Assembly: GCA_015039365.1 (NCBI GenBank)
Contig: WION01000007.1
Span: 744,001 to 808,000, forward strand
Length of the DNA stretch: 64,000 bases
Direction of reading: 5' to 3'
Source: Amanita rubescens
Taxonomy: Eukaryota; Basidiomycota; Agaricomycetes; Agaricales; Amanitaceae
The notes beneath the pieces were generated by a model. That model saw nothing but the letters and a program-made list of their open reading frames with translations. It was not told the DNA's origin and did not search any database. Positions within the stretch are counted from its first letter, which is position 1. Each line of letters opens with the position of its first letter. The translations under genes and the position numbers were made by a program. This document shows positions 24,020-59,442 of the stretch, piece after piece.

Positions 24020-24700
24020 ATGACCATTGCACAAGTGAAAGAGGACCTGCGCGAGGGTTCCGCCAAGTTTCGTGAACTCGTTGCCTCCATAGACGCTGTT
24101 GGAAGTTCGATCAGCGTTCAAGAGGCTGCGGTGAGTAGCTGTCCCAATGATATGTCAAATTAAATTAAACTTGTTTTCCAGAGCATCCTCGCCAGAATTC
24201 CATTTATTAAAATCATTCTTGACAGGGCCGAGGAAAACGCCAAGGCAAGTTATTTTCCCCAGATTGACTTCAAACGCTAACTGCCTGCTTTCTAGGGCGT
24301 TCAAGACGTCTCTGACAGTGATGCAGAGTTTATTATCGGCCAAGTCAAGGCCATCTTACCAGACATCTACAAGGGGACAGATCTAGTCATCCAAAAGAAG
24401 GATGTATTCGCGCAATTGCCCAACGTCTTCCCGCTAGAGGGTCTCTTTGCTCCTGCAGTTCAAGGAACAGTCATATTTTTAGTCAGAGCACAAATCGAGG
24501 GTTTACATGCCCGTGCGATGACGTTGGCGAACATTGCAATCACGTTGTCCCCGGTTTGTATCCAATTCATTACAAAATACGCATATTTGGGACTTACCTT
24601 ACCCATGTAGCCCAAGTACAAGGAAGAGGCATTGAACCTCAAAGCTCAAGCTGACACGAAGATCCAAACGGCGATTAAGGTATATGCCCAGTCGGCCTGA
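24020..24700 (+). CDS. HsbA-like protein without signal peptide, member A (173 aa)
   Basis: Exons 24020-24130, 24182-24244, 24296-24553 and 24611-24700 sum to 522 bp. The protein starts MTIAQVKEDLREGSAKF and has no signal peptide. The second half matches the hydrophobic surface binding protein A pattern: ILPDI, then QKKDVFAQLP, a hydrophobic Gly-containing segment (about residues 106-121), QIEGLHARAMTLANIAITLSP and a final helix ending KIQTAIKVYAQSA. Known HsbA proteins are secreted and coat hydrophobic solids, recruiting cutinase; this member lacks the export signal, so location and role are open. Intron 2 (24245-24295) has a GC donor, as in four paralogues. A TATA box is 72 bp upstream. The 3' half and flank were copied to 27.3 kb. 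Confidence 0.75.
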
Positions 24701-25020
24701 TGGCCTAAATTGTAGGCTGGTGAAGAGAATATGTTTTCCTCCGAGAAATTTCTTGAGTCGTAGTCGACGTTGTATCTTGTATTATTTGTGTTCTAACTTC
24801 TCCGTGTACGTTACGTTATTCTTGAAAGATCATGTGGTGCTTTATTTCAGACAGACGAGACGTGTCGTTGGTTCGGTTCGGTGAACGATCCATGGTGTTG
24901 GTTGTTCCGGATAAGGTTGTGGTTAGCCGTCTTTAAATAACCACCCAACTTACTCGGCATCGCAGAGATAAAGTATTGTTATTAAAGCTTCAGATCCCGT
25001 GTCTTCTACTTGAGCGCGAC
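24343..25020 (+). repeat. Direct duplication, copy 1 (3' end and flank of HsbA-like A)
   Basis: Matches 27330-27995 with small deletions in the second copy. Shared landmarks are the final exon, the stretch around CGATCCATGGTGTTGGTTGTT and the stretch around GCAGAGATAAAGTATT. Confidence 0.85.
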
Positions 25021-25140
25021 TCGGAGAAGTCGTCCCTTAATTAAAAACGGCATTCCACCAGGGTAATCAATTAACGTTAACGTTCACAGTCACTAGTCAC
25101 TGAGACTCGCTTGTCACACGCTTTCGAACAATGCTAGACA

Positions 25141-27278
25141 ATGCATCCTCACGAAACGTTGCTCTGCCCTGTACACCCGTTTACTGGGAAACTGCCTGAA
25201 ATTCAAACTGCCAGAATTCGTGCCTTGAATCAACTTGGATTACCATCCGTTTCTTTACGAGAAAGCCCGACTGTGAAGGTTGTCGTGACCCGCCTCTCAA
25301 ATCGCTTGCGCCGGTGTCACCGAAAGAATATCGAGTGGCTTGAACCTACCCCATCACATCACACTACGCGAGCCTTTATACTAATATGATATACGGAGCA
25401 CTGATCAAGTGGTCCTCACAGATGGTTAGAATATACTCACAATTACCTCATAGCTCCTATCCTGCAGCTCTTTCAACAGCTGCGTGTTCGTGAGATAACA
25501 GATGAGATGTTCTCTCATGCAGAACAACATGGCGGGGGTGAGTCTTATCCTAGATAATATTTTTCGTGTATAACCCTCAGATTAGGCATCCTGAAGGTCT
25601 GGTTCACTAGTCTTGACTTCGACACCCGGAAGGATCCCGTACATCCCCCTAAAATATTTGTTACAGTATGTAGCAGCTACACTCACGCCGCATTGGGTTC
25701 ACGAAAGTTACAAAGCCTCGACGTTTTCCCAATCTGATCACCACAGAAGCCGTTGCGCTCGCTGTTTCGCCGATCTTAGGTGATATCAAATCCGGCTCAA
25801 AGGCCATTTTTACGGACCTCAAAACCGTCCTCATTATTCATCCTCGTGGGCCGAAGCAAGTTGAGGTGGAGATAGTGCCTCTGAAGGACGATCTTCGAAC
25901 ATTTCGAATTATATCGACCGCATACTTACTAGAAGCAATGCCCCCATCCACATATCTCAATACGCCTAAAGACCCTGAGGGAAAATATGTGTTTTGGCTG
26001 CCTCCGCGTCACTACGACGAAAAGCCGCTCACGGACGAAGAAGTATTCCGAACAAAGCACCGTATCTCAGACTTTGATATTTTGAAATTATTGGACGATC
26101 GAGAAGGTGCCTTCCAATTCTTTAGATGGAAACGATATGTAGAGCAGCACGTTTCGCCCAATATCACATGTGCTGGAGATATTTTGGAATGTACGACTAA
26201 TGGGTTTGACCAACAATACCACCCACCTCGAGGGCTTTTCTCAAAACCGATCCCTCCGTTTACTTTACAACATATGGCAAATATCTTGCGTCCGAATCCT
26301 CTCAGCTCAAAACTCCGTTCGGCGCTGAATGACTCGAGACGTTTTACCATCAAGCTTGGAAGATCGCTGGGAGATAACAATCTTATCACGCGGATTCATC
26401 TCTGTCGCATTGAGAGAATTGATGACCTTCCGATAGAAAACTGTCCCGAATTGATAATGAAGATATATGATGATAGGTTTATGAAAATGGCCAGCCCATA
26501 TGACGAGGATGAGGAACAGTTATACGATCAATCCGCCAGTACCTACCTTTGGTTCCAGTTTGCTCCTGACGGCAGAATGGCATATGAGAGGAGAATTGAC
26601 AGCATATGAGAAGATGGAGGTGGCACAAGGATCCTTGATCCCTTATTTTTATGGAGCGCACAAGGCAAGACCCTGTCTAACACCACATTCTGCGATCTGA
26701 CCATACAATGTTTAGTTTCGGCTGCCCAACGGTCACGAAGTTTTCGGTATATTACTGGAGTATATAGATGCACTACCATTGGATAGTGGCTGCGCCAGCA
26801 AGTGTTCGGAAGAACACCGGAGTCAGCTGGTATGTTATGTGTTCCTTCGTAATTAACCACTGACGTCGTAACGCCGTAACATATTCTACAGATGACGAGT
26901 ATTCGGCACGGTCTTCGAGTAATGCAATACTCCGATGTCTCACAGCTCGATTGGCATCCAGGCCAAATACTCTGCAACATCCCGCCCTCCATGTCTTCCG
27001 ACTCCTCTCAAGCACACGCCGTATTGATCGACTTTTCAGCCACAACACAAACTCTCGACCCAGATGTTGATCTTTCAAACTTGGATGATTATGGAAGTTG
27101 TGCATCCGCCATTGCACGTCTGACTGGCATGGATACGAAATGGGTATGTGAGTACTGGGATAGAGATGAGATGAAGAGAGAATGTTGGGACGCGAATTCG
27201 ATGGGTGCAGTCTTTCGCAGTGGGTATACTTGGTCAACCAGTGGAGTGGATCCCTATAAGTTCGTGTACGATGGCTAG
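25141..27278 (+). CDS. Degenerate protein-kinase-like protein, probably frameshifted
   Basis: The clearest exons read ALAVSPILGDIKSG, an uninterrupted stretch from 25866 to 26609 with ELIMKIYDDRF (beta-3 lysine), then GELTAYEKMEVAQGSLIPYF, FGILLEYIDALPLDSG and a terminal exon with YSDVSQLDWHPGQIL and VLIDFSATTQTLDPD. These correspond to the hinge, catalytic loop and metal-binding segments of the degenerate fungal kinase-like family, with DFS in place of DFG. Between LWFQFAPDGRMAYER and ELTAYEKM (around 26.59 kb) the frame changes by one base with no intron that fits, so the gene is broken or the sequence has an indel. The 5' exons before 25.74 kb are uncertain, and the ATG at 25141 is only a candidate. 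Function unknown. It sits between two copies of the HsbA-like A 3' flank. Confidence 0.55.
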
Positions 27279-27329
27279 ATAAAGTTGAAGTGTTTAAGTG
27301 AATAGGTATTGACGCTGACATTATGCCAG

Positions 27330-27618
27330 TAATATGCAAAGTCAAGGAAATCTTACCGGACATCTACAAGGGGACAGGTCTAGTCATCGCGCAATTGCCC
27401 AACGTTTTCCCGCTGGAGGGTCTCTTTGCTCCTGCAGTTCCCGTGCAATGACGTTGGCAAACATTGCAATCACTTTGTTATCCGACTCTTTACAAAACAC
27501 GCGTATTTGGGACTTACTCCACTCACGTACAAGTACAAGGAAGAGGCATTGAGTCTCAAAGCTCAAGCTGATGCGAAGATCTAGACGGCGATTAGGGTTT
27601 ATGCCCAGTCGGCCTAAT
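27330..27618 (+). pseudogene. Truncated HsbA-like fragment (copy of member A, 3' half)
   Basis: Begins inside exon 3 (GTCAAGGAAATCTTACCGGA) and runs to the stop region. Internal deletions remove KKDVF and the hydrophobic segment, and intron 3 is damaged. No promoter or first two exons. It lies in the duplicated flank 27330-27995. Confidence 0.85.
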
Positions 27619-27995
27619 GGCCCAAATTTTAGGCCTGGTGAGAGAATATTTCTTTGTAGTATTTCTCCGAGTTTCTTTGTTCGAGTCGTAGTCGTAGTCG
27701 ACGTTGTCATTGTATTATTGTATTCTTCTTGTACGTTACGTTGTTCTTGAAAAATTATGTGGTGATGAGAGTCATCAATATTTCAGATAGACGAAACGTG
27801 TCGTTAACTCGGTTCGGTGAACGATCCATGGTGTTGGTTGTTCCGGAAAAGGTTGTGGCGCGCACGCTTAGCAGTCTTTAAATAACATCCCAAGCTGAAG
27901 TTACGTGGCATCGCAGAGATAAAGTATTATTATTAAAGCTTCAGATCCCGTGTCTTCCACTTGAGCGCGAGAAGCCGCCCTTCAATTACAGGTAC
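27330..27995 (+). repeat. Direct duplication, copy 2 (3' end and flank of HsbA-like A)
   Basis: See copy 1 at 24343-25020. Together the copies bracket the kinase-like gene. Confidence 0.85.
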
Positions 27996-28485
27996 AAAAG
28001 GTTTATTCAGGCATTCCACGATTTCCATCGGATTCGAGTTGTCTAATCAAGATAAGAATTTCTTTTTAACAAATGGTTAAACTGGCAAGGTCTGGTGACC
28101 AGGCCGACTCTCCACGAACGATTCGGTGATTGCCCATGGTTCCATGATATCAAGGGGCTCAGATCTTTGAGTAGATCGTTTGGTTCCCGAATTCGGAAGT
28201 GCTGCCTGATAACTGTCACATGCAAATGCATCCCCCAACTTGTATCTTTACATCGAATTCCTTGAACATATTCAAATAATTACAGCGAAGTTGACAGTGG
28301 GTACAAGCCCCAGTTGGCAAGCTATTGAATTGAAAGGGGTCCACTTTGGAGTCACCTTCAAAGTGAGTGGTGTGTGACGCGGACGGCGTGACATTGGACA
28401 AGTTTGTTGGCACATATACTGCTTCGTCAGATAATCGTGGCACCAAGATCTAGGCTTCCAATGTTGGCCAGAGGTCCGGCTGGAG

Positions 28486-28601
28486 ATCCATTTGGGCAGT
28501 TCTGTTGGAAAACCATGTACGTAGTGTAACGTGCGCATTCTTCCATATGGACGAAGCAATCGCTGATGACATTGCTAGAGAAGCAATAGGATGGTATAAA
28601 A
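28486..28601 (+). promoter_or_regulatory. Conserved promoter block of HsbA-like gene C
   Basis: ATCCATTTGGGCAGTTCTGT at 28486-28505 and TATAAAA at 28595-28601, 73 bp before the ATG. A further shared stretch (GGTTCCCGAA) lies near 28.18 kb. Confidence 0.6.
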
Positions 28602-28667
28602 GTGGATTGAAATGGCGACATCCCCGATCTTATTCTCTTCCTCGGCTCTTCCACAGATTAACAAGCC

Positions 28668-29360
28668 ATGACCATTGACCAATTTAAAAAGGATTTGCTT
28701 TTGGTCGCTCAGAACGCGCATGACCTTGCTTCCTCTGTTGGCGCTGTTGGAAATACAGCCACCGTTTTAGAAGTGACGGTAAGTGCTTTATCGATAATTT
28801 TTCAAGTTAAATCGACCATGTCCACTAGAGCATTCTCAGTATTGTCCCAAGCATCAGATATAATCTCGACAGGTGCGAAGCAGACACCAAGGCAAGCGGT
28901 TTCCCATCGGGACGAGTCGAATTTTAAGAATCTGCTTGTCCATCTCACTCTAGGACATTCAAAGTGTATCGGACAGCGATGCAGAGAGTGTCATTGCTAT
29001 CATCAAGGGCATCGTACCGGACATCGCGAAGACATCAGAAACAGCCGTTCAGAAAAAGGATGCCATTGCGCAGTTGCCAAGCGCTTTCTCCATAGAGGGC
29101 CTCTTTACCGTTCCCGCCGTTGTCGGGGGCACTATCATCTGGTTAATCAGGACCCAAATCGATGGTCTGCGCGGCCGTGTGTTGGCATTAGCGAACATTA
29201 TGATTCAGTTGTCACCGGTGTGTAGAAGTCCTATTCTACAATATGCAAAAATTTGGGACTGAATTCGCCAACGTAGCCTAAGTATAAAGAAGAGGGAACG
29301 AGTATCAGAGCTCAGATTGACGCCCTGTTCCAGCAAGCGCTCGATGCCTATTCATCCTAA
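28668..29360 (+). CDS. HsbA-like protein without signal peptide, member C (173 aa)
   Basis: Exons 28668-28778, 28829-28891, 28954-29217 and 29277-29360, also 522 bp, with the same phases as member A. It starts MTIDQFKKDLLLVAQNAHDL, with no signal peptide. Exon 3 has IKGIVPDIAKT, QKKDAIAQLP, a hydrophobic Gly-rich segment (PAVVGGTIIWLI), and the end helix reads ALDAYSS. Same HsbA-type pattern as member A. Intron 2 (28892-28953) starts GCAAGC; using any nearby GT donor breaks the frame. TATA box at 28595. No visible defect, so this is probably an active gene. Confidence 0.75.
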
Positions 29361-30276
29361 TATTGCTATTCCATAAGTATAAAAGAGCATTTCCTCTCCT
29401 GAATTTCACCTTCCCATTGTTGTCTGCATCGCCAGAATACGAATCTTATCTAAACAATCTATCTATGATCTTGCCGGTAACTTAATTCAAGTCATCATCC
29501 CATTTAGGCTCCAACAAATTATATTGCCGTGCGATAGAGTTGTTGTGCATGTGAGGACTCTTGGTTACAATTAGTCGATGCGGCTGCGTCATGCGCCAGT
29601 GCCGTTCATTAGTATGCTATTGGCCCTGCCAGCAGCGGCTTGGAAAGCGTCAAGGATTTTCAGCGTCACTGCACCAAATCCAAGTTGACAAATGAGCTAA
29701 TGGCAGACGGCGATCTGACCAGCTCTACATTTCATCAGCCGTAGCCGTTGTGTATTGCAGTGAGCATAGAGTAAATGTGCTGGCATTGGGACTTCATGCT
29801 GAAGTCATTGAAGAGATTTTGGGACGTTAGAGGCCGCAAGGAATTTTTCATTTAGAGACGAGCGTATCCGAGTCTGTAACGTGGAAACTTGAAGGCAGTG
29901 TGAACAGCCAAATTCAATTGGCGTGAGGGCATTTGAGAGTTTGTTTCGGCCTTTACTTTACGGCGCAAATGCCTAGCCTAGACTTGAAAAAAAGAATAAC
30001 TTGTGACCAGATCGACACAAGACGCTTTGGTGATGCTTTCGCGCTTAGAGCTTAGATCTTCAAACAGATATTGTTCGGTTACCGAAGTTCTGGAATCACG
30101 TGTAAATAGACCACCATGCCACAAACCCATCCAATGTTATCGAGCGCATTCAAACAATCATGGTTAGTGAGAACAACCCAGGTAGAAGAAGGCTCTTGAC
30201 AGGTCCCAGTGCATCATTGGCGTGATGGAGGTCGTTCTATAATCGAGATCTAGGCTTCAATGAGTGCCAGCCAGAA

Positions 30277-30400
30277 ATCCATTTGGACAGTTCTGTCGAA
30301 TAACTCACGAAAGTAGTGCAACGTCCGCATGCTTTCACATGGACGAAACAATCAGCCGATGTTGCCGTTGAAGATGCAAGGGTGATAAGATGGTATAAAA
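30277..30400 (+). promoter_or_regulatory. Conserved promoter block of HsbA-like gene D
   Basis: ATCCATTTGGACAGTTCTGT at 30277-30296 and TATAAAA at 30394-30400, 73 bp before the ATG. Confidence 0.6.
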
Positions 30401-30466
30401 GTGGGTTGGAATGGCGAGACCCCAACTTTTTCCTTTTCGCCCGCTCTGCCCCAGGATTAACAAACC

Positions 30467-31161
30467 ATGACCGTCGACCAACTGAAAAAGGATTTGTATG
30501 TGGTCGCTGAAAACGCGCGTGACCTTGCTTCATCGATGGACGCCCTTGGAGATTCGATCACTGTTGCACAAACAACGGTAGGTGGTGGACCAATTTCTTG
30601 TCAAATTAATTAAGCCCGTTCCACAGATCCTTCTGAGCAAAGTTCCAACTATCAAGTACAACCTTGACAGGTGCGACGAGGATACCAAGGCGAGTAATCT
30701 CCCATCATCGTAATTCGAAACCCCAAGCTCACATCCATTTGTCTCGTTCGTACTAGGACATTGTCAACGTCTCGGACAGCGAGGCAGAAAGCGCCCTTGG
30801 AATTATCAAGGATCTGATACCGGACATGGCGAAGGTGTCAGAACTACTCGTCAAGAAAAAGGATGCTTTCGCACAGTTGCCCAACGCCTTCTCCATAGAG
30901 GGCCTCTTTGTTATACCGACTGCTGTCGGGGGGACCATCACCCTTTTATTCAGAGCACAAATCGAGGGCTTACACACTCGTGTGATGACGGTAGCGAACA
31001 AAATGCATCAGCTGGCTCCGGTGTGTAGCCAGTCCAAGTTTGTTAACCGTGGAAATGTAGGACTGATTTCGCCAATGCAGCCCAGTCACAAGGAAGAGGC
31101 AACGAGCATCAAAACTCAAATCGATGGATACTTCCAACAAGCGCTTAAGGCTTATTCCTAG
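30467..31161 (+). CDS. HsbA-like protein without signal peptide, member D
   Basis: Four exons with the phases of members A and C. It starts MTVDQLKKDLYVVAENARDL, with no signal peptide. Exon 3 reads DIVNVSDSEAESALGIIKDL, then KKKDAFAQLP, a Gly-rich hydrophobic segment (TAVGGTITLLF) and QIEGLHTRVMTVANKMHQLAP. The last exon ends FQQALKAYS, stop at 31159-31161. Intron 2 (30690-30756) has a GC donor (GCGAGT). Promoter elements as for C. It appears intact. HsbA-type assignment comes from the helix pattern and the KK-x-FAxLP / LAP / AY motifs; I cannot see what it does inside the cell. Confidence 0.75.
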
Positions 31162-32799
31162 TAATTGTCCAAAGCCAGCATAACGCACCTCTTTCGTCAT
31201 TTCTTATTCGAGTTTCTTTGTTGTACTCTAAGAGTTCGTATCCCAGGCCCAGAATATGAATTATGTTCAGTCCCTTACAGTGAATGTTAGTCTGTTGTTG
31301 GCATTCTCGGGTTCGGGTTTGGTCTTTTGCAGTTTCGCACAAGATCGTCAGGATTAAGCCCAAGTATCACCCTCACAATACAGCGATGCTTCCTATAGAA
31401 GGTACACTCCTGTCAGGAGACGTTAGATCGGGACGTGAATACAAGAATACTGTGACGATGATAGGAAGTCCTTTCGCCGATCAGCTCGGTTTAGCATCCA
31501 GGTATCAAGGGCAGTACAGCTGACGGCATGAGTGAAAGCTACGATAGGCGGCCATTTCGCAATGCGGACTGACACGTTCTTAACATGCCGCGATGAAGAG
31601 TTCAACGAGTTGCTTGACCTCTGCCACGACGGGAATCCGATATTCCCGACCTGTTCTTCAGAGCAAGTAACCGAGCCGCGTTCTGGGGAGATACGATGAA
31701 TATTGGCACTCGAGGCAACCTCGACTGTTTTGTCCAGAGCTAATCTCCCGTCATCGCGGTGTCATGCCCGCGATAACCCCCGCGATAGAACCCTTATGCA
31801 AACTTCCATTCGCCCTAGAAGGTGTACGTGTTCCTCACGTAGTCGAAGCGACCTTCTGATATTGCAGGATGACACGGCTAAGAAGCGGAAGATCGGGGAA
31901 TCTTCGCCACTCGTTTCATAAATCATATCTGTTGATTCGAGATCAAGTTCCCAATCAAAAGGACATCGGGATGAGACCTTCACCGTATTTATGGTCACTA
32001 TAGATCTCTTGAAGTCTCGCGTAGAGAAGCAGTGACGTATGCATTGGTAAGTTGTGATCACCGACAGAGAATCTTCTAAAATCAAATTGAATGAAGTCCG
32101 CTTGAGGCCGTCGATAAGAATTCCGGAACAATCAGAAATAACCTTGAAGAGTGCAAGGATGGCACCAAGAAAAGCATACCCGTTTATCTTCTTCCGCTTC
32201 GAAGCGCTACATTGTTAGCACTCCTTTGAGATTGACGCAATTCGCATCATTGAAGGCAGTGCCCAATCATCAAGGTGGTTTTTGCGCTAGCCGGCGAGAA
32301 AGAGGGTGGCTTCGAAGACTTGGCCCATCCTATCCTGCATATCCCGACGGTATGAATTATGTCCGTCGCTCTTAATAGGTGGTTCAACACCGTCGTGTGC
32401 GTGGAATTGACACTAGCGACTCGACTCTGTTAAAAATAAGCCATAGATTTGCAGTCCATCCTCTGGAAACCTTGCATATTAGGACTGAATTCGCCAACAT
32501 AGTCTGCGCCACAGAGGAAGAAATAAAATCATCAGACTGGTAAAATTGACGAGGAGCCGTTGATAAGAAATCTTGATATCGGGTAAGTCGCAATGTAGAG
32601 AAGCCGTTTCATTTCCTCATTCGATTACGATCTATGACTCTCACAGGGTCGATCCTATGTACGTCATTGATATTATTAAGGAGACTAGTTAAAGACACAG
32701 ACTTGTATGTTGCTCGTTCTCCAGCGAGCCTTACTATAATGATTCAAATAAAGTGTAAGTACATTAAACGATGCCTGACCTCTGCTACTTGCTATCAAG
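31162..32799. other. Region of decayed HsbA-like sequence, no intact gene
   Basis: Short frames only. Pieces between about 32.12 and 32.55 kb resemble exons 2 and 4 of the array genes and are annotated separately. Confidence 0.5.
32120..32550 (+). pseudogene. Decayed HsbA-like relic (exon 2 and exon 4 pieces)
   Basis: At about 32.12-32.17 kb, AATAACCTTGAAGAGTGCAA followed by GGATGGCACCAAG parallels the exon 2 end (NLDRCxxDTK). At 32.48-32.53 kb, GGACTGAATTCGCCAACATA followed by GTC and a GAGGAAGAAATAA stretch parallels intron 3 and exon 4 of member C. There is no open frame across it. Confidence 0.55.
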
Positions 32800-33810: not shown

Positions 33811-34540
33811 GTTGAAGGAACAGATGGAGTTTGGTGATTGGAACATCGCGCGTCGTTGTGTTCAAATAACACAATACATACCTTAGCAGCGTGTTGTGAT
33901 TAGCGCCCTTAATCCCTTTCGAAGGTGGCAGTACTTACAATAAAAGCTTATAGAGCGGGATGGTACAATAAACGTATCATTCTTGCTGCATCCTGAAAAT
34001 TCACCGCAACGCACCGACTTTACGCGCGCATCAATCAGCATTCATGTCGCCCATTTTACTTGTCCTGTGCCGGCAATGATGGAGACAATCCCGACCGAAT
34101 CGTGACGCACTGCTATGTGACATGCGTCGCTGTTGTGACTCGATCACACCGACGGTAAGGGTGAACACAGATCGGCGTCTTTGCCTACGATTGGAGATCT
34201 GATTCTGAATGACCGACGGTAGTGCAGAATGAGTGTTGTGCGGTGCGTTTTTCTGATGCGCCTGAAGCATCGGTGTGACCTTGCATAATAATAGCTTTTG
34301 CCGGTTAGGACAGCATCACCGCCCGCAATGATCCAGGGGCGGACAAAACCCTACTATTATATCCGTGCTCCTTGTCCTCCGAAGGATGGTTTGTTCTGTA
34401 TGCGTGTTTTCCACATGGCCGAAGACAATTAACTGGTGCTGTGAAGCACGGTGTGATATGGCTTGTCACTTTCCGAGTCTCCGAGGGCGCCTATGTTCAG
34501 TGACTAATTGCTGACCACGAAATGATAAAAATAATCCTTC
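33811..34540. other. Intergenic, no supported gene
   Basis: Upstream region of the membrane protein gene; no feature recognised. Confidence 0.5.
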
Positions 34541-40004: not shown

Positions 40005-41850
40005 TTAGTTCGCAAGCAGCATTTTCCGGGGATCCTCAATGTATTCTTTCACTTTCACTTTAAGGGCAGATACAACAATCAGTCGCCTATCCGGCTTCTT
40101 TACGCGAGAAATACCTACCAAGGAAAGTAACAGCTTCCCGGCCATCTAGCAGACGGTGGTCATAGGTGAGCGCCACTACCATAATGGGCCTAATGACGAT
40201 CTGTCCATTGACGACCACGGGCTTTTCTTTGATCGCATGCATACCTGTCACATGCACAAAGGGCCCATTTTTGGCTTAGCACAACCTAGGATTGCATCAT
40301 CGAGGGAGAAAAAAACGTACCTAGTACGGCGGCCTGTGGAAGATTGATAATAGGCGTGCCATAAAGCGAGCCGAAGACTCCGCCATTAGAGCTACATCAC
40401 GAATAGAGCCAACGTTAGACTAATGATGAAAGCCCCAGAACCACACCACGTACATAGTAAAAGTACCACCGGACATATCTTCCAGTGTGAGCTTACTGTC
40501 TCGTGCCTACCCAACGACACGTAAGAGGAGCAGAAATACCGCAATTCTGATAGAGCCATACCTTCTTACCGAGATCGGCAATTTCTTTCTCGATCTGAAC
40601 GAAATTCATGGCCTCAGCGTTTCTAACGACAGGGGTAACAAGCCCCTTGGGCGTCGCCACTGCAACGCTTAGATCAACAAAATCGTGATACACAATCTCA
40701 TCGTCTTCGATGTAAGCGTTAGCAGCGGGAATTTCTCGCAACGCGAGAGTGCACGCCTTTGCGAAGGCGCTCATAAAACCGAGTTTTACGTCATGTTCTT
40801 TTAGCACTTCATCCTTGTATTTTTTGCGCATTTCCATTAACGACGACATATCGATCTCGTTGAACGTAGTCAACGAGGCTGCCGCATTTTGAGACTCTTT
40901 CAGGCGCTCAGCAATGCGCAGGCGCATGCGACTCATCTTGACCTGAAAAATGCGTTAGAGGCGCGCCGCTGAGCATCTTGCCGAGGACATACTCTCGTCT
41001 CATTGCGTGAGCCTGGAACGACTGCAGACAAAGGCTTCTCTTCCTTTTTAGGCGCTTTCTCAAGATCCTTCCCCTTTGTTGCTTCCTTTTTCACCTCCTT
41101 CGGCTTTTCTGATGGTGCAGGTGGCTCTGGTAGCTTCTTATCTACTTGCTGGTCGGCAGGCTTTGGCTTCTCCGTTTCAACAGCTTGCTCTTCCTTTGGC
41201 GACGCAGGTGCAGGAGCTTGATTGAAGCGAGACGTAAATAAAGATAACCAAAAAGCGGATAGATCGCACACATACTCTCGCCCACCTCACCGGGCTCAAT
41301 GACAAACAGATCTTGTCCGACGGCGACAGTATCTTCCTCATTCGCCAACAACTGCACAATCTTGCCTGATTTCGGTGCATTTACCGTCACGTCGATCTAC
41401 CGAACCATCAAATCTCTCCTTGAATCCTGTCACGTTACTTTTAGAATGTACCTTGTCCGTTTCAATAGTAGCAACTTCCTCGTCTGCAGCTACGGTATCT
41501 CCGACTTGTTTTGACCACGACTTGAGTGTTCCCTCGCTAATAGATTCCGCCATCTGAGGGACCTTTACCGTCTCGGCTGATCGTGAACGTACGCATCACC
41601 ATGCTATTTCCCGGTCGTTTCGAGACGGCACCCACTCACCCTCTAAAAGCCTCGTCGAATGAAACTGGGCTCTCTGCGCATAGATGTTTGCTGTCTCCCT
41701 GCATCCAAAAGACATATAAGATCGAGATTTGCGCAACGCAGCCGGCACAACTCACCATGCTTTGAACACGCCGCGAGCAGCAGCTCCGCTGTGGCGGGCG
41801 TGTAGAAGGCCGCGACCACGCGCGACTGCAATGATGTGTTTCGACAGCAT
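40005..41850 (-). CDS. KGD2: Dihydrolipoamide succinyltransferase (E2 of 2-oxoglutarate dehydrogenase)
   Basis: The start at 41850 gives a mitochondrial presequence ([20 protein letters not shown]). The lipoyl domain follows, starting with [16 protein letters not shown] and carrying [11 protein letters not shown] with the lipoylated Lys, then an Ala/Lys/Pro/Glu linker. The catalytic domain has [91 protein letters not shown] and the active-site [14 protein letters not shown], ending [13 protein letters not shown] (stop 40005-40007). There is no separate E3-binding domain, as usual for this enzyme. It transfers succinyl groups to CoA in the TCA cycle in the matrix. A likely 5'UTR intron lies at about 41.86-41.92 kb, preceded by a short upstream ATG frame. 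Confidence 0.95.
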
Positions 41851-43515: not shown

Positions 43516-44861
43516 TTAGATCAATTTTAGAAGGTCCCCCAGAACGCCCATAGCAGTAACAGCGGCACCAGCGCCGGCTCCTTGAACAATGAGAGGTCTA
43601 GGGCTATACCTCTCCGTATGGAACATGATGATGTTATCCGACCCGCCAAGGGAAGTGGAAAATGGGTGATCAATGGGGTACCTAGTTCATTCACCCTTCA
43701 GTGTAAATCCGAAATTGACTAGGATCGAGAACGCACTTTTCCAACCCTGCTTTGACTTGTCCGTTAACAGCATCTACGACACCGACAAATCTTAGGACTT
43801 TGCCTTCAGCGCTAGCTTCTGCCCTAAGTTTCGAGAACTGCGCATCAAACTCCGGAAGGCGCGCGATGAACTCGTCGCCTGTGGGGATACCTTCTAGAGC
43901 TGAAGGAATGAGAGAGGCAGTCTGTACAGTGGCGAATGACTGTAATTCTGGAAGCGATACTGGTTTGATAGAAAGTGTCGAGATGGTTCGCGATAAGATG
44001 GTTAATTTTCTCGCGACGTCAAAGCCGTTAAGATCGTCTGCCGGATGAGGTTCCTATCCAAGAGTTATTCATAGCAAAGTGCATTGTAGCATGGAGGACA
44101 TACAGTGTAGCCTTTTTCCCGTGCTGCTTTGACAATGGAAGAGAAAGTCGGTCCGTCAGGCTTGCCCGTTGAGAATTCGTTAAATATGTAGCTCATCGTG
44201 CCAGAGAATACACCCTCGATTTTGACGATCTAGGCGATCCTCCGTCATCAGTCGCGTTCTAATGCATCCTTTATTAGTTGCTCACCTTATCGCCCGTTCC
44301 GACGAGCTCTTTCAAGGTGTTTATTACCGGCAAGCCTGCGCCTACCGTGGACTCGTTTAGATATCGAGCGCCAGATGCTCTGCTACTCTGGATGATGGCA
44401 TTGTACAGGCTGATGTCACCGGAAAAGGCTTTTTTATTCGGTGTAACGACGTGGATTCCTTTCTCAAGCCATAGAGGATACAGAGCAGCGACGGCGTCAG
44501 AGGATGTGTTGTCAACGAGAGCAACGCGCTCGTTCGCTTGGACCAATGCATGCAATCGTTCCGTCAAGGCGTGTAGGTCAGCCTTTTCCAATGAGGCAGC
44601 GAGAGTCGATTTCCAGTCGTCGGTCTGTTGGATCGGCTTCGTCGAGTTGAAGATGGATCGCGTAGATGAAGATAAGGAGATCAACCTAAACGGCGATACA
44701 TTTTGTGGTATGGAGAGTAGTTGATTGATCAATTCAGATCCCACAAGACCCACGCCAACGATGGCGACATGGATCTGTGACTGTTTCAAGTCTCGTTGCA
44801 TGATCGTATGTGAAAACCTGAGAGCAGCTAGTGGAAATCCAAGTCTCCTGATCACGAACAT
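43516..44861 (-). CDS. HOM6: Homoserine dehydrogenase
   Basis: The N-terminal Rossmann motif is VAIVGVGLVGSELINQLLS. It is followed by NVSPFRLISLSSSTRSI, ALVDNTSSDAVAALYPLWL, VVTPNKKAFSGDISLY, NESTVGAGLPVINTLKELV, then IEGVFSGTMSYIFNEFS, EPHPADDLNGFDVARKLTIL and, across a GTGCGT-donor intron, LEKYPIDHPFSTSLGGSDNI, ending GAGAGAAVTAMGVLGDLLKL. All substrate and NADP-binding segments of the family are present and the length is normal. It reduces aspartate semialdehyde to homoserine for Thr, Met and Ile synthesis in the cytosol. The start at 44861 adds a short N-terminal extension before the usual start region at MQRDLKQ. Confidence 0.95.
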
Positions 44862-45227
44862 GGTAAAACCGTGTCAAAATCATCTTTCTATGTACTCGTG
44901 GCTTGATCGAATTTCATTTCCCTTAGGGCTTCTTTCAGGGTGACGTCCTAACTACCGTTGATAAATGGCAACCCTACAGCGGGTCATCCTCACAGGGTGT
45001 ACTAATCGGAACATTCCGCGAGTATACATGAAAATTGGGCTGTTTCATAAACCGCAAACCATTAATGAATTCTAGGTTTGCTGCAGGAGCGGCGGTGAAT
45101 TTGTAGCGAATCTGCCATGTGCGTCCACTCAAAAAATGCGTGATCCCAAAATAGAACTTGTATTGTCCTTACGTAATCCAAAGCAAACTTAGTTGCGGCC
45201 ACGCCAGGAGCCAAAGTCCACCACGCC

Positions 45228-47623: not shown

Positions 47624-47992
47624 GTGTTATGTTATGTATTGAACAGTTGCGACGCGTGTTTAAATCTGCTTGTATATATAATTTATCGACGCTTCGTGCT
47701 ACTTCTTTACTATACAATGTACTTCGCTGTAGGTTTGGGAGATACCTATGGAATATCTTCGGGTAATGTCTTTTGACTGTAGATCTGGTCGAAAATATTC
47801 GGTATCATGGACCTTCAACTAGGATTGTCATCAGGAAGCATAGTATTAATCTGCTATCTCAAAATTTCGCATCCCACAGAGTATTTTCGTAGTTCATTAT
47901 AACCGTGTCAATCTGTACATACATATCTAGATACGATATGGACGATCGTGGGATGGAAATCTCATGTTCTTGGCGACCTTCGCTAGTAATCA

Positions 47993-48732
47993 CTAGCATA
48001 TGCACCACTCGCTGCCTTGAATGCAGCTTGGAGTTGGTCCTTGATGCACGTCGCTTCTTCCACCAGATGAGAGTTATCAGACTACAGGGTTTAAAATCAG
48101 TCTCAAGAACGTATGGTCTGCGATGGACAAGATACAGACCGGTACCAGTTCAATAAGAGAATTCGCCAAGTTTATTGTGCTTTCGTCCATGATCTGAAGT
48201 ACCGAATAAGCGATCGGGCCAGGGACGAGAGGCAGCACGTCGGCGTGCTTCTTCTGATCAACAATTGCTGACAAGGCGGCCTCGAAGTTTGGTACGATGC
48301 CTTTGACAATCTCGATGATAGCTGTTGCTTCATCCTACAGAGAGGCTCCTGGGTGAGAATGCTCTATAATATAGTGCGAATGGTCAGGGTTTGCAGTTAA
48401 CCTATTAAAAAAACTGGCTACCGAAGTGTCGGCATTGCACTTTGACGAGATCGACTTCGACACGTCCGATGTGGACAAGAGCTACCTATGGAATACATGA
48501 ACATCCTATGGAGTTCGACAGATTGGTCCTACCACTTACCGTTACATCTACAACATCAAGTACACTGACAATAGCATTTACGGCGGAAGCGAGTTCAGGC
48601 TAGGTCGACAGAGAGCGTGTTCAAATCAGCCTCAAGTTCGCTGACAGCTCGAGGCTTAACGGGGAATGTGGAGGAAAGGCTGGATAGGGTGGCAAGGAGG
48701 AAGAAGATAGACGCAAAGCTGATCTTGACCAT
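47993..48732 (-). pseudogene. Secreted HsbA-like member E, broken
   Basis: It has the same layout as member F: signal peptide (MVKISFASIFFLLATLSSLS), then FPVKPRAVSELEADLNTLS. An extra base within exon 1 then gives a stop right after LSVDLA. Two extra bases in exon 2 would restore the frame later. Exon 3 keeps EATAIIEIVKGIVPNFEAAL and LANSLIELVP; exon 4 ends FKAASGAYASDY (stop 47993-47995). The TATA box has decayed to TATTAAA. Probably a recent pseudogene or indel-affected sequence; the intact sister is F. Confidence 0.75.
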
Positions 48733-48896: not shown

Positions 48897-49075
48897 GGCT
48901 ACTTACTAGTCGCCTCCTGTGCAATAAGGATTCCGGCGCCGTTTTCAATAGAGGTGAACTTAACAATATTATTAACGAGCTGGCGCAAGTTAGTCTGGAG
49001 TGGGTTCTGCTCAATAGGGGAGTAGGAGGAAAGTGTGACGAGTAGGAAGATACATGCGAGGCTGATTTTGACCAT
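48897..49075 (-). pseudogene. Solo first exon of a secreted HsbA-like gene
   Basis: MVKISLACIFLLVTLSSYSP followed by a TNLRQLVNNIVKFTSIENGA stretch aligns with exon 1 of E, F and H, including a signal peptide. No exons 2-4 follow before gene E. The corresponding place near 54.0 kb in the second duplication copy holds only traces. Confidence 0.65.
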
Positions 49076-52543: not shown

Positions 52544-53283
52544 CTATAACACCAGGGCATATGCATCAACGGCCGCCGAGAATGCAACTTGGAGTCGGTC
52601 CTTGATGCTCGTCGCTTCTTTCACCAGGTCACAGTCATCAGACTACAGGGTATAAAGTCAGTGAACGTATGGTCTACGATGGACAAGATACAGACCGGTA
52701 TCAGTTCAATAATAGAATTCGCCAACGCTGTTGTACTCCCGTCCAAGACCTCAAGATACAAATAAAGGACTGGGCCAGGGACGATAAACTCATCGATGTA
52801 CTCCTGCTTTTCAACAATCCCTGACAAGGCGGCCTCGACGTTTGGTACGATGCCTTTGACAATCTCAATGACATCTTTTGCTTCATCCACAGAGAAGCTG
52901 GAAATGCTCTAGAATGTAATGCGAGGGCGAAAACAAATGGTCAGCGTTCAAAATTAGACTATTAAAAAAATTTGGCTACCGAGGTGTCGTCATTGCATTT
53001 AATGAGGTCGAGTTCGACAGGTTGGGCTTGGAGAAAAGCTACCTGGGAAATACATGAACATCTATGGAGTTCGAATTGGTTTACCACTTACCGTTTCAGC
53101 TACAACATCAAGCCCATTGACAATGGACCCTACGAGGGAAGCGAGTTTAGCTACGTCGACGGAGAGCTGGTTCAAATCCTCCTCGAGTTCGCCAACAGCT
53201 CGAGGCTGAATAGGGAAGGTGAAGGAAAGGCTGGATAGGGTGGCAAGGAGGAAGAAGATAGACGCAAAGCTGATCTTGACCAT
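52544..53283 (-). CDS. Secreted HsbA-like protein, member F (188 aa)
   Basis: Exons 53092-53283, 52980-53042, 52696-52908 and 52544-52642 sum to 567 bp. A signal peptide (MVKISFASIFFLLATLSSLS) is followed by FPIQPRAVGELEEDLNQLSV, VAFLQAQPVELDLIKCN, then SSFSVDEAKDVIEIVKGIVP, a short hydrophobic stretch (VPGPVLYLYLEVL) and LANSIIELIP, ending FSAAVDAYALVL. This fits HsbA: a small, secreted, helical surface-adsorbing protein that in Aspergillus recruits cutinase to hydrophobic polymers. All introns are GT-AG, unlike the signal-less branch. TATA box at 53335-53341, 58 bp before the ATG. Intact; the sister gene E is broken. Confidence 0.78.
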
Positions 53284-54699
53284 GATATGCTGAGAGCGCA
53301 CCCAGAACAATGAAGACCACAGGCGGGGTGAACCTTTTATACCATTTCATGGGCACAATCGGCAATTCCCCGTAGTCTGTGTGTTCCGTGATTCTCATCG
53401 TCTTTGACCCCATCTGGCAATTAAAAAAGATTCTTACTAGAACCAGCTGCATTGTTGCAGGGCCAAATAGGCTAAAAACAGATTTTACAAGTAACCTCAG
53501 GGTCCCAATTTACGGTCGTGTGCCCAGACACACCTTCAAAATGCTGCCTGGCTACCGTTGCAGAGGCCGTAGCTTCGCATTCTATTATAATAGGGAACGA
53601 AAGACCGTCTGGGTTGCACACAAGGCTAGAGGCTTCGAGGTTTCATGCATTCACGACGATATAGATGATAAGTGCCCCACAAAGCTAACGGCGCTAAACA
53701 ATTTGGTTGATTTAGTAACGTTACTAAAGGGCTAGCGCTATTTGGTCCTGCTTGGCGACTCGCTTTTTCGGCTAGCGAAGACGATGGCACACCGTACGTA
53801 AGTTGAGTGGGACATTTCCTCGCTAGAGTCCCGAAAGAACGATATTCTTAGATCGATTGAAGCTCCCTCGAGTTCACCAGACATAAAATAATGGTTACCT
53901 TTATATGACAACAAAGCATTGTGGAAAGCAAAGTTCTCCTGGGTGCTTCCAAGTTGTCAGACTCCTCATCGCTCGCCCCGCGGAGCTTTAGGTCATATTT
54001 TGGGCGAACTCCTGTGCAATATGGATTCCGAGGAAGAAGATAAAGGTGAGGTTGATAAGCGAAGGATAGGCGTACCCGGGCCTTTCTTTCGGAATGACAC
54101 TCTTGCCGAATAGTTCGGGACAATTGGATTCAAGCTAGTCAGTTCTACTTGGGCATAAGATGGTTGCGAACAAGCCGAAGCCTTCATGGATCCGAGATAA
54201 ACTAGCCAGGCTCATGGCCCAACATCGATTGGGTCCGCCTCAAGGAACTGAGCAGCGCTCATCATGCGCAGTCCAATTACTTCATATTCCTACTTCCTGT
54301 AAAAAAAAATAGGACTGGGTTGCATACAATCGAATACGACAAGTCGATCGACTCACAAAAAACCGTAAAGTTGATTAATGACCAAAAGCCAGCTATACCG
54401 GTTGGGTCATTGCGGGCTTCATTTCATGGTGCTGATGGTGTGCGAATCTGCGATGCTCACTTGAAAAGGCTAAATGTGGCGTAGCGCTCATAAACACGGG
54501 CCGGCTCGGCACCCGTCATCGATTCATCCCTGTCAACACATGTTGGAGAGAACTTGCTTTTGTTGAACTCTGCTCCGAACTTGAAGTGCCTTATCATCTG
54601 GGAAATAAATTATTCTATAGGTTGGTGCATAAAGTACAATGAAAGGATGCTAAGTTGAATAACGGGAAACGACGAAAATAATCATTTTTCGTAAGATGG
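53284..54699. other. Upstream region of F, with unique insert and duplicated block
   Basis: An open frame on the plus strand (53379-53735) reading MLPGYRCRGRSFAFYYNRER in its middle is absent from the first duplication copy; it may be a fragment of an inserted gene or chance. From about 54.1 to 54.5 kb the sequence repeats 49.3-49.7 kb. Confidence 0.4.
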
Positions 54700-55476
54700 C
54701 TATCCCGATGAATATAGTTGAATCGCCTCTTTGAATCCGGCATCAATATGGGCCCTGGTATTCGTTGCCTCTTCCTTGTAGCTCTCCTACATTTGCTACA
54801 TCAGCCACGCATGTATGATTTATGAAGAACAAGCCACGAACCGGAGCCAACTTTACCATAGCATTTGCTATTGCCATTGCGCCGTCGTGTATAAGTCTCA
54901 TTTCCGTCCTAATTGCACTGATGACTGGATTCTGTACGTTGACATGGGTTGCCCACGTGAAGAGTCTCCCGGTGGCGAAGGCAATGGAACCAATAACGGG
55001 GACAACATTGAGCGACCCCACAATATTCTTTTTCTCGCACGCCAGTTGTAACACATTGTCTATAATTGGAACCAGGACTTTAATAATGTCGAGGCAAGCT
55101 CCTGCTTCACTGTCGGAGACATTGCAAACGCCCTGGAATACGAACAAAGACGATTATCAGATTTCCGACTTTATTCGTTGAGAAAATACTTGCTTTAAGA
55201 TCCTTCTCGCACTTGTCAATACTTCGTTGGAGTGTCCAGACCCTACGAAAGGCGCCCTAACGAATGAATTCGGATGAGTTTAACAAATACTATCGGCCAG
55301 CTACTTACTACTAGATGTGAAATGGTGGTTGAAACTCCTATAGCGTCCAAGCAGGAAGCAACTTCGCGTCCATTTTCAATGACCTGAAGTAAGTCCTTTT
55401 TAACTTGGTCAATGGCCGTTTCGACCATGGCTTGCTGATATCGAGGGAGAGCTAATGAAGACCACAGACGAGTCAT
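54700..55476 (-). CDS. HsbA-like protein without signal peptide, member G
   Basis: Exon 1 starts MTRLWSSLALPRYQQAMVET and runs into AIDQVKKDLLQVIENGREVA, the start motif of members A, C and D with about 25 residues added in front. The extension is not a signal peptide. Exon 2 ends SIDKCEKDLK; exon 3 has VCNVSDSEAGACLDIIKVLV, CEKKNIVGSL and a hydrophobic Gly-containing segment (VPVIGSIAFATGRLFTW), then IANAMVKLAP. The last exon ends FKEAIQLYSSG (stop 54700-54702). Intron 2 (55133-55193) has a GC donor (GCAAGT). An upstream ATG at 55494 is in frame, but the shared similarity with member I begins at 55476. Appears intact. Confidence 0.72.
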
Positions 55477-56808
55477 TGGTGGGGATCCAGTCAACTGTTG
55501 TTGTTCTCATCAATCCTGGGTCATCCTTTTAAACGCCAGTTAATTGCTCCGGCCATGTGGGAAACACGCACTGCGACACTGCATTTACCGGTTCTTCGGA
55601 GGCAAATTTCTAATGCCGCACATAGGAAACTGAAGCACCATCTGGGGGTACAACACCAAGCCGGGCCAAACCTGAAAAGGCTAGCTTACCGCAACGTTAC
55701 TCAGGGTCACCTAAAAGTCGGCTCGAGTCGGAACATCATGCATCAAGCTTCATTGTCCATGGTGGCGGTGGCAAAAGTCAAGTAGCGAAAATGGTTCACT
55801 GCAACGTGCAGAAGGAACGAAGAAAGAAGTGTGAGGACAGAAGCATTTTATTGCGCAACCACGATTTCAATTTTCTCGACGGCATGACATTCGGCTCGCT
55901 CTTTGTTACGTACGGTATGTTGATGATTTAGCACTAATGCATGGACCCGGACTCGGCCACATCATGAGACTAAATCCAAGAATATTTATGTCATAGCTCA
56001 GAACGCAAATATTATTATTAGTACGCACGTCTTGATGACAAGTGGGTACTTCTTCGCTTTACGGAAATGAAAAGAGCTGAGCGCAATTGTATATTTCCCC
56101 CACAAAGTGGGCATGGTGAAGAACTGGTACGTTGACGGCTCTTAAACGCCGCCGACAGTCAAGATTTCAGAGACTACTGGTGTTCCCGGATTCTACGGTC
56201 ACTTTTCAACAGTCATCACTACTTCAACGAGCAGGGCTCGATCTTCAATGCGGCACGTCTGAAAGCTCAGGTCAACCATAGTGGTAGCCTGACTGGTAAA
56301 GTGCTCTGAGCTCCTCGTAACCCACAGCCCCATTCTTGAATGCCGATATTTTTCTGTTGAAATTCAATCACGAACGCTACGAGTCAGCCGTAGCGCCACA
56401 AATTCTACGGTATCAAACATTTCGCCGCACCTTCTGATGATGGTGACAGAGATACTAGATCGGTCGATAGAATAATGAACACCCATTCAAAGTGGGTTCT
56501 GATCAAGGCCATAGGAACCATTCCCTTGGAGTTCATGGAAACTCATCTGAAGATCTGAGGTTGTGCACTGGTACTGGAAATTGAATCATCTAGGGTGAAT
56601 CTGGAGGAAGAATGAAGAAGGACAGTTTGCGCAGAGCCAGACGCGTGACAATCGTTACTTGAATAGGAAGTTGCTGAGTCAAACTTGGACGTTACTTATT
56701 GAATAGGTGCACAATCGTATCTAATGATGACATGGACCACAATGGATGCTCGAATGGATGCGACTGTTCTGTCTATCCATGGGACCGTGAGAACCACTGG
56801 GACTATCA
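55477..56808. other. Intergenic, no supported gene
   Basis: The first ~300 bp is similar to the region upstream of member I (59.45-59.75 kb), including a GCTAATTGCTCCGGC-type block. A TTTAAAAGG element lies about 55 bp before the ATG of G. The rest has no feature. Confidence 0.5.
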
Positions 56809-57541
56809 TTAACTGTATGCAGCAATCGCCTCATCAAATCCATTTTTAAGTTCGGCCTTGATATTTGTTGCAGTCTGGACAAGGTCAAGCTAAATTTTCG
56901 GAACCGGTTTCAGAAACTGATCGTTTTCAAAAGATCGGCTACAAACCGGAGCCAAAGGGATCAGAGCGTCCCCCAATGCCAAGACACTATTTTCCAAGGT
57001 AACAAGTTCGCCGTGAATGAGAGGGACGGGGATGTACAACGCCGAGAAGATAGCCTTCTTCTGAACGAGCGCATTTAATGCGCCCAGAACGTCTGGCACG
57101 ATGCCTAATATGATATTTAGGATAATATTTGCTTCAGCTTCGGTGACATCGAGAATGCCCTGGGAACGCAATACGAAGTCAAAAGTCAAGATTGAAAAAA
57201 TATCCATAGGGAACCATTTACCGAGATGTCCTTGACACAATTGGTAAGATCTCCATTGACAGTTTGGGCTTGGAGATAAACTGCCTGAAAACACGCAGAC
57301 CATCTATCACTCATTTTATTTGACAAAACGGTCGGCCGCTTACCGTTTCTTGCACGAGAGTGATTCCGGTTCCACTTCCAACAGAATCTATGCCGTTAGT
57401 AAGAGTAATTACGTCGGCGGCGAGCTTATTCATATCTGTCTGGAGTCCAGTGAAATCACGAGGCTTTATAGAGGAGGCGAAAGAGAAGCAGCATAATGTG
57501 GCAAGGAGGAAGAAGATAGACACAAGGTTGCTTCTGATCAT
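56809..57541 (-). CDS. Secreted HsbA-like protein, member H
   Basis: Signal peptide MIRSNLVSIFFLLATLCCFS ending near FASS. The mature part reads IKPRDFTGLQTDMNKLAADV, AVYLQAQTVNGDLTNCVKDI, GILDVTEAEANIILNIILGI, VPDVLGALNALVQKKAIFSA, LVTLENSVLALGDALIPLAP and ends FDEAIAAYS (stop 56809-56811). This is the clearest HsbA match in the window, with all expected helices and the KKxxF, LAP and AIxAY motifs. All introns are GT-AG. TATA box at 57593-57599, 58 bp before the ATG, the same spacing as in F. Secreted, extracellular; a role at hydrophobic surfaces is inferred from the family. Confidence 0.82.
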
Positions 57542-58636
57542 AACGTATCGGTCTCAACAATCGAAGGAAAACAGCGGGTCCTCACTATTCACTTTTATAC
57601 CACGCTATGCGGCGTGTTATCAGGAAATGACCGTGCGCGACGTATGTTTCTTTGGGGGATAGACTTCATTACTCCTGTCATATTTGACAAAAGTCGTTCG
57701 GTAAGTAAAAAAAACATATGCATATGCCGTAAATTGTGTTCATCTTCAGGGTCGAACACGGAGTTTCCGAGTTTCTCGCAACGTGCATCAAGAATAAAGT
57801 TGCAGATTTGGTATCAAAACCAGTCGGCATAGTTTTGGTCAGAACACAGCTGTGCGGCTAACGCCAAAAATTTCGGAGCTTCCAGGTCCCTACTGGTGCC
57901 GACCGCATTGTCGCAGAAAAGACGCTTCGCAAAACTGGAATAAGCTAGACCAGATTTCACAACGTAATCTCCCACCATATACATGGTTAAGTATCAATCA
58001 GGATCCTAAAACATCGGACCGACATTCGCCACATAACTCCAGAAAGCCATTTATATATTGTTCACAGGCTACAATCATGGAGGGCGCTGAATTATGACGG
58101 TTTGTGTAGTGTGCGAAACTTGAACCATGGTTCTCTCTATTTTGTCCTACAAGTTCGACTACTTACTGATCGGAATGGCAAGGACGCTTCTATTCATGGA
58201 AGAGCGGTTCGTTGTTGTGGAACTAGCCCTTGCCGCGTGTCCGCGACGCGAGCATGCAGCACGGAAGCATTCAACAACTGTGATCCTGTCTTGGATCCGC
58301 GGACTCGCCCACGACTTTGACTTCGAGAACGTTCTGATTTTTGGATTTACTTATCCACCACTACCAGATATCCGCCAATACTTTTGACAGAAATCGAAGC
58401 TATTTCTTGACATATGCATGTTCTCGGAACTTTTTAAAGTACTGTCTATTTTATTAAACTTTATCAAATGTCTGATCATGAGACTCGAAGAACAGTGTCC
58501 GAACATTCGGTCTTGTGACAGAAATAAATTAATGTTCTAGGGTGGTGTCGTGAATTACGATTGATTGATAGAACAATGGGAAGAATAAACCGCGACGAGA
58601 TACGCGAAACACGTGGAATGAGTGGCGCGGAGAGGA
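57542..58636. other. Intergenic, no supported gene
   Basis: Promoter side of H and 3' flank of I. A motif like CCGACCGCATTGTCGCAG near 57.90 kb is also present upstream of E and F. Short frames only. Confidence 0.45.
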
Positions 58637-59442
58637 TTATGATGACGAATAAATCATAATTGCCTCTTGGAATTTGGCATCAACTCGAGTCCTGATACTC
58701 GTTGCACCTTCCTTGTAGCTGGGCTGCATTGGCGAAGTCAGTCTCAGAGTCGCATGGCTTACGAAGGTCGAGCTACGAACCGGTGCCAGTTTTTCCATCG
58801 TGTTCGCCAATGCCATCGCGTGGTCGTGTATACGCTTGATCTCCGACCTAATGAGACTGACAGTGGGGTTCTTGACGTTGACATGGGTTGCCCATGTGAA
58901 GAGTCTGCCTGCAGCGAAGGCAATTGAATGGATGATCGGAAGTCCAATGTCGAATCTCTCTGCGACATCCTTTTTCTCGCACGCTAGTTGCAACACCTTT
59001 TCGATGTTTGGTACAAGGACGTTAATGATGTCGAGGACATCTCCTGCTTCACTATCAGAGACGTTGCCAATGCCCTGTAACGGAACAGGATACGAATATA
59101 GATGGTCAGAATTCCGAATCCATCTGTGCAGTGGAAAGATCGCATGCCTTGATATCTTTTTCGCATTTGTCAAGATTACGTTCGACGAGAAGGACCTTAC
59201 GCATTATGCTCTAACAAAACAGGATCGGCTTAGTTTGAACAAATTACCGTTCAGCTACCCACCACCGCCTGTGAAATGGTGGCCGAATCTTGAACAGCAT
59301 CAATGCAAGAAACGAGGTCACGCGCATTCTCAGTGACTTGGTGTAGATCCTTTTTATACTGGTCAATGGCAGTTTCGACTACGTTTTGTTGATATCGAGG
59401 CAGAGTTAATGAAGACCAGTTAGACCACCGTAGAAGAGTCAT
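58637..59442 (-). CDS. HsbA-like protein without signal peptide, member I
   Basis: Starts MTLLRWSNWSSLTLPRYQQN, then VVETAIDQYKKDLHQVTENA; there is no internal Met, so the extension seen in G is probably really translated here. Exon 2 reads SIMRKVLLVERNLDKCEKDIK with a splice directly after. Exon 3 begins GIGNVSDSEAGDVLDIINVL and has CEKKDVAERF, an AAGRLFTWATHVNVKNPT segment and LANTMEKLAP; the last exon ends FQEAIMIYSSS. Intron 2 (59076-59147) has a GC donor (GCATGC). Closest relative in the window is G, with which it shares upstream sequence. Intact. No signal peptide. Confidence 0.72.

Follow-up and report, generated by a model that had tools for sequence, protein, structure and literature searches.

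Can a protein family that acts outside the cell give rise to members that remain within it? To our knowledge, the HsbA/Mp1 fold is known only from outside the cell. The question is raised by an array of HsbA-like genes in Amanita rubescens, the blusher, which lives as a tree-root symbiont. The array lies in a window of 64,000 nucleotides (nt; contig WION01000007.1, positions 744,001 to 808,000 of the forward strand, GenBank assembly GCA_015039365.1); all coordinates below are those of the window. The present study suggests that this local array of duplicated HsbA/Mp1-type genes has split into two branches. One, comprising genes F and H and the broken copy E, keeps its signal peptide and is presumably secreted, while the other, comprising genes A, C, D, G, and I, most likely lost the signal peptide in a single event and acquired a hydrophobic insert; its second intron is of the GC-AG type. 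To the reading that the first branch is secreted and the second provides a cytosolic lipid carrier we give a probability of about 0.48.

Signal peptides and N-terminal extensions

Signal peptides were judged by Kyte-Doolittle hydropathy, taken as the best 11-residue mean within the first 40 residues. F and H begin with a hydrophobic stretch resembling a signal peptide (2.45 and 2.76), in agreement with a preliminary description of this DNA, whereas A (1.34), C (1.45), D (1.47), G (0.53), and I (-0.14) contain no such stretch. By this measure the N-terminal signal peptide that marks secreted HsbA proteins is present in F and H and missing from the other five, with some doubt left by the N-terminal extensions of G and I. 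The preliminary description had these five begin without a signal peptide at a TxxQxKxDL-type sequence; the missing signal holds for all of them (at most 1.47), but the starts of G (55476) and I (59442) lie farther upstream. In G, the Met codon at 55428 is a Thr codon in the allele on haplotig C106, the sole amino-acid difference between the two alleles of G, and I has no ATG at the matching position; the starts must therefore lie upstream. As a result, the sequence ahead of the shared motif is longer than in A, C, and D by 19 residues in G and by 23 in I. The extension is conserved, reading MTRLWSSLALPRYQQ in G, MTLLRWSNWSSLTLPRYQQ in I, MTLLWSSLALPLFQQ in the A. brunnescens protein P0006, and MTLLWSSLPLPRYQH in the environmental protein P0007. 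A typical signal peptide it is not, although P0006 is hydrophobic enough to leave doubt.

Alternatively, the signal-less proteins might resemble other HsbA proteins in acting outside the cell, having left it by unconventional secretion or, in the case of G and I, with the help of a weak signal at the N terminus. Their fold and conserved surface-protein ancestry fit this alternative, as do the conserved extension of G, I, P0006, and P0007 and the N-x-S/T sequons of D, G, I, and the A. brunnescens protein P0002, which would be relevant in a secretory route only. However, the extension is missing from A, C, and D, which fall far short of F and H in N-terminal hydropathy, A and C also lack a sequon, and unconventional secretion leaves nothing that can be read from a sequence. 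We therefore consider export unlikely, though it is the alternative that survives best. An SKL-type peroxisomal tripeptide was found at the C terminus of none of the five signal-less proteins.

Homology, hydrophobic insert, and fold

On sequence grounds the two branches are homologous. When A, C, D, G, I, and P0002 (G and I minus their extensions) were compared by hhalign with H, F, and the outside-array genes L033, J1, and one copy of J3, the two sets aligned with a probability of 99.6 and an E-value of 1.3e-24 over 156 columns, starting directly after the signal peptide. The HsbA-like label given to the members in the preliminary description holds at the Pfam gathering cut-off of PF12296 (33.5 bits) for H (46.8 bits) and I (36.9), and also for P0006 (37.4), but A (29.7), C (28.1), D (26.4), F (31.9), G (19.1), and P0002 (28.4) score below it, with E-values of 2e-7 to 0.0019 for the five array members and of 0.0019 or better for P0002. 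None of four proteins matched NCBIfam, a prokaryote library.

A single branch with support of 100/99 separates the seven signal-less rows from the rest in a tree of 15 proteins, and the grouping persists without the N-terminal and insert columns (92/95; 90% of 200 bootstrap trees). G, I, and P0006 group together in the two trees (100/98 and 99/97), and the group of A, C, D, and P0002 is less sure (83/92 with reduced columns, no resolution in the full tree). The same seven rows, and none of the other eight, contain extra residues, numbering 13 in A, 15 in C, D, and P0002, and 24 in G, I, and P0006. This hydrophobic insert appears to be a second derived mark of the signal-less branch. In the predicted model of P0002 it lies at the junction of helices 5 and 6, where the predicted local distance difference test score (pLDDT) is 59-73.

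Such an insert could instead hold the signal-less proteins at a membrane inside the cell. Its confinement to this branch, the low model confidence at its position, and a 19-residue hydropathy near it of up to 1.80 (C; D 1.70, G 1.68) would be consistent with that role, but the value is just 1.52 in A, 1.42 in P0002, and 1.32 in I, and the insert contains proline, glycine, and charged residues. Moreover, H reaches 1.94 in an ordinary helix, so the hydropathy of the insert does not demonstrate a membrane segment, and we regard membrane association as improbable.

Whichever branch was modelled, the prediction matched the same solved structures, with the signal-less branch represented by P0002, the A. 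brunnescens relative of C. The structural similarity whose absence would have told against the preliminary description is thus seen, with P0002 standing for C. The predicted helical bundle is superposable on Afmp4p and Mp1p, and the closest solved folds are the palmitate and arachidonate complexes of these proteins. As modelled, the signal-less branch keeps the fold; that of C itself is read across from P0002 on the basis of their shared identity. The earlier statement that HsbA proteins are secreted stands, but the role then assigned to them, binding to hydrophobic surfaces, may be too narrow, given that the nearest solved relatives are fatty-acid complexes.

Upstream exons and translation starts

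One or two codons ahead of the ATG, the reading frame of A, C, and D is closed by a stop. The TATA boxes of these three genes lie 72, 73, and 73 nt upstream of the ATG, compared with 58 nt in F and H. A scan for upstream signal-peptide exons, limited to introns of 41-150 nt and first exons of 45-150 nt, gave two possible joins for A, one for C, and none for D, G, and I, with a best hydropathy of 0.62, and in D no splice acceptor (AG) occurs from the in-frame stop ahead of the ATG up to codon 8. In the same scan F and H reached 2.70 and 2.71 by using their own signal codons, which checks the scoring and gives no chance rate. An upstream exon with a signal peptide, named in the preliminary description as grounds for abandoning its proposal, was therefore rejected within these limits, and together with the TATA boxes right upstream of A, C, and D this makes it very improbable that the starts have been misread.

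Selection and integrity of alleles

The assembly contains two haplotypes of the locus. Haplotig C81 holds A, C, D, and the truncated copy B (99.3% identity across the stretch from A to C, 97.6% across that of D), and C106 holds E to I in pieces of 85 to 98% identity, mostly near 95%. All seven alleles keep their splice sites and open frame, the other allele of I ending one codon earlier: the coding sequences of A, C, and D are identical in C81, and F, G, H, and I have intact alleles in C106. Allelic changes (synonymous/other) number 0/0 in A, C, and D, 2/1 in G, 10/8 in I, 7/7 in F, and 6/6 in H, and depart from neutrality in G and I together (p 6.5e-4) as well as in F and H (p 0.004). Between paralogues, the ratio of nonsynonymous to synonymous rates (dN/dS) is 0.25 for C-D, 0.26 for G-I, 0.29 for A-C, 0.44 for A-D, and 0.64 for F-H, values that are rough because dS is 0.8-1.3. 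Purifying selection on the signal-less branch is thus supported. A branch of decaying copies, to which the broken B and E and a relic in the same array might point, was rejected and is scarcely credible in view of seven of seven genes intact in both haplotypes, the constraint in G and I and between paralogues, and intact signal-less relatives in A. brunnescens (P0002 and P0006).

Gene architecture and the GC intron

Splice models were built from the sequence for A, C, and D on the plus strand and for F, G, H, and I on the minus strand. They bear out the claim of at least seven apparently intact genes with a common exon structure: each of the seven is divided into four exons by three phase-0 introns, and exon 2 is exactly 63 nt long throughout. 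Exon 1 measures 111 nt in A, C, and D, 168 nt in G, 180 nt in I, 192 nt in F, and 198 nt in H. Gene A (23948..24700; TATA box 23948-23955; exons 24020-24130, 24182-24244, 24296-24553, and 24611-24700) encodes 173 amino acids, as does C (28595..29360; TATA box 28595-28602; exons 28668-28778, 28829-28891, 28954-29217, and 29277-29360), and D (30394..31161; TATA box 30394-30401; exons 30467-30577, 30627-30689, 30757-31020, and 31081-31161) encodes 172. From their upstream ATG codons, G (54700..55476; exons 55309-55476, 55194-55256, 54842-55132, and 54700-54786) and I (58637..59442; exons 59263-59442, 59148-59210, 58781-59074, and 58637-58723) encode 202 and 207 amino acids. The signal-peptide genes F (52544..53341; TATA box 53334-53341; exons 53092-53283, 52980-53042, 52696-52908, and 52544-52642) and H (56809..57599; TATA box 57592-57599; exons 57344-57541, 57222-57284, 56947-57159, and 56809-56889) encode 188 and 184, H being equal to the public A. 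rubescens protein P0021. The pattern KK-x-FAxLP, described earlier as common to the members, is exact in A and D only; C reads KKDAIAQLP, and F, G, H, and I deviate.

Intron 2 starts with GC in all five signal-less genes (24245, 28892, and 30690 on the plus strand, 55193 and 59147 on the minus strand) and with GT in F and H. GT was also found there in eight models outside the array, although GC was allowed in the search: L033, L034, L036, L039, J1, J3, and the other copies of J1 and J3, the models of J1 and J3 differing in part from the public P0022 and P0026. The GC start is thus a shared derived splice site of the signal-less genes. The public A. rubescens model of I (P0005) is identical to ours, GC intron included, and that of C (P0001) omits exon 2 because intron 2 begins with GC.

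Route of signal loss

The leaders of the signal-less genes (A, C, D, G, and I) were compared with those of signal-peptide type (E, F, H, a solo first exon, and L033), and 4 of the 25 pairs beat all 300 shuffles, the outstanding ones being G-F (z 9.9), D-H (z 6.9), C-H (z 6.2), and I-F (z 3.7). The leader and extension of G align with the leader of F through F's start (ATGGTC; 0/300 shuffles), and G bears no resemblance to the signal-peptide codons of F (z 0.6). This favours an in-frame deletion downstream of the old start codon. Against it stand the 21 pairs without such support, the A-F, C-F, and D-F alignments, which hold little except the TATA box, and the comparison of D with the signal codons of H (z 2.8). 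In addition, the upstream ATG of G lies 56 nt from a TATA-like box, compared with 58 nt for the starts of signal-peptide genes, a spacing that would put the extension at the place of the old signal. It is also possible that gene conversion between the neighbours F and G produced the same leader picture. The route, in which the signal-peptide codons may have been deleted in frame, is the weakest step of the explanation proposed here.

Other elements of the locus and relatives elsewhere

Several fragments accompany the intact genes, largely as first described. B (27336..27764, plus strand) is a truncated copy, the 3' part of an A-like gene with its downstream flank, recovered in hidden Markov model (HMM) pieces and 70.5% identical to A by blastn. 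E (47992..48732, minus strand), likewise recovered in HMM pieces, is a broken gene of signal-peptide type whose first exon is interrupted by a stop at codon 46, and a solo first exon of the same type lies at 48907..49075 (minus strand). Of the two relics described, one is supported, at 32468..32521 (plus strand), where the intron 3/exon 4 region of a C/D-like gene is recognized by local alignment (z 7.9 to C, 6.4 to D; 0/100 shuffles). A second was unsupported near 34540 (z 0.4 to 1.6), a place that may differ from the one meant, since no relic coordinates had been given. Between A and B there is an open frame of 311 codons (25674-26606, plus strand) with no Pfam match. Pfam named three domains in 10 neighbouring open reading frames; housekeeping genes between the array halves, at 40496-40954 and 44277-44873 on the minus strand, encode a 2-oxoacid dehydrogenase acyltransferase (PF00198) and a homoserine dehydrogenase (PF03447).

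A genome search with PF12296 returned 17 places, both haplotypes counted: H, its allele, and 15 outside the array. Thirteen of the 15 begin with a signal-peptide-like stretch, the exceptions being L040, whose signal-peptide frame is broken, and L027, for which no first exon was found. A search with C returned signal-less genes only in this array and its haplotigs. These searches score best candidates only, so all counts are lower bounds, and the PF12296 search missed most of the array genes. L040, at about 2081-2203 of contig C452, is an L033-type HsbA copy whose frame is broken inside the signal peptide and whose mature part still matches, which may reflect either a further case of signal loss in progress or a fault of the assembly. 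Three more HsbA genes of signal-peptide type, J1, J2, and J3, neighbour the array in both haplotypes (L026, 291-4335, and L032), L026 lying on C650, the contig of the window, about 10-14 kb past the window's end; the A. rubescens proteins of this second array are P0022, P0025, and P0026. Protein searches, which rely on shared exact words, returned named proteins from two Amanita species only.

Discussion

The preliminary description proposed that one branch of this array had moved to an intracellular or unconventionally exported role while keeping its fold. The missing signal (by hydropathy), the lack of a suitable upstream exon, the homology and grouping, the fold modelled on P0002, and the constraint have been computed and argue for that proposal; from them we infer the cellular location and role. 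The signal-less genes would encode the mature helical bundle almost directly from the start codon, and their products would remain cytosolic, with the same internal pocket taking up fatty acids or other hydrophobic metabolites, in the manner of an intracellular fatty-acid carrier. Lipid binding is proposed on the cytosolic side because palmitate or arachidonate is bound in the nearest solved folds and because a Yarrowia family reported to share this fold is described as binding fatty acids. More tentatively, Amanita may have evolved an intracellular fatty-acid or lipid carrier from a secreted HsbA/Mp1-type wall protein by signal-peptide loss within an array; secreted and intracellular forms would then, just as tentatively, be neighbours with TATA promoters that are laid out alike.

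Several points weigh against a cytosolic carrier. The extensions of the G/I type are conserved and, in P0006, mildly hydrophobic, so that a weak signal is conceivable, and the hydrophobic insert, most pronounced in C, might bind membranes instead, the ordinary helix of H notwithstanding. The root of the tree is uncertain, and two of its branches, L033 and F, are long. P0002 is only 65% identical to C, and the alleles of A, C, and D, being without any change, are uninformative on selection for these three by themselves. If the signal-less branch is nevertheless cytosolic, the HsbA/Mp1 fold is not bound to the cell surface, and a match to PF12296 is no proof that a protein is secreted. The locus would then provide a natural side-by-side comparison, F and H versus C and D, of a lipid-binding bundle on either side of a membrane, and a well-marked case of targeting-peptide loss within a mushroom gene array.

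Among known systems, the nearest in structure are the ligand-binding domains of Mp1p from Talaromyces marneffei and Afmp4p from Aspergillus fumigatus (5j5k, 5j5l, 5csd, 5ecf, 5e7x, and 5fb7), which we take to be cell-surface or secreted proteins; the signal-less Amanita branch differs from them in having no signal peptide and in carrying the insert. The cytosolic fatty-acid-binding proteins (FABPs) are beta-barrels, and the Amanita protein is a helical bundle; no relation is claimed, and the likeness would lie only in how the protein is proposed to work, as a carrier inside the cell that keeps its lipid buried. HsbA of Aspergillus oryzae belongs to the same domain family by the Pfam profile, above the cut-off for H and I, and is reported to be secreted, to attach to polyester, and to recruit cutinase (PMC9394342, excerpt). 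In contrast, five of the Amanita genes lack the signal. UP1-UP4 of Yarrowia lipolytica are reported to share the fold and to bind fatty acids extracellularly, with signal peptides predicted in all four (PMC9526294, excerpt), which sets them apart from the signal-less Amanita genes. In the open-access literature, as judged by titles and the beginnings of abstracts and with subscription journals mostly outside its scope, no description of a signal-less HsbA branch was found. Yeast duplicates are reported to change compartment through the gain or loss of targeting peptides (PMC2397506, excerpt), so the process itself is ordinary. It would be the same evolutionary process as in this Amanita array, with localization measured in yeast and deduced here, and with the Amanita family arranged as a local array; as far as the literature searched goes, it is the family in which the change of compartment would happen that seems new.
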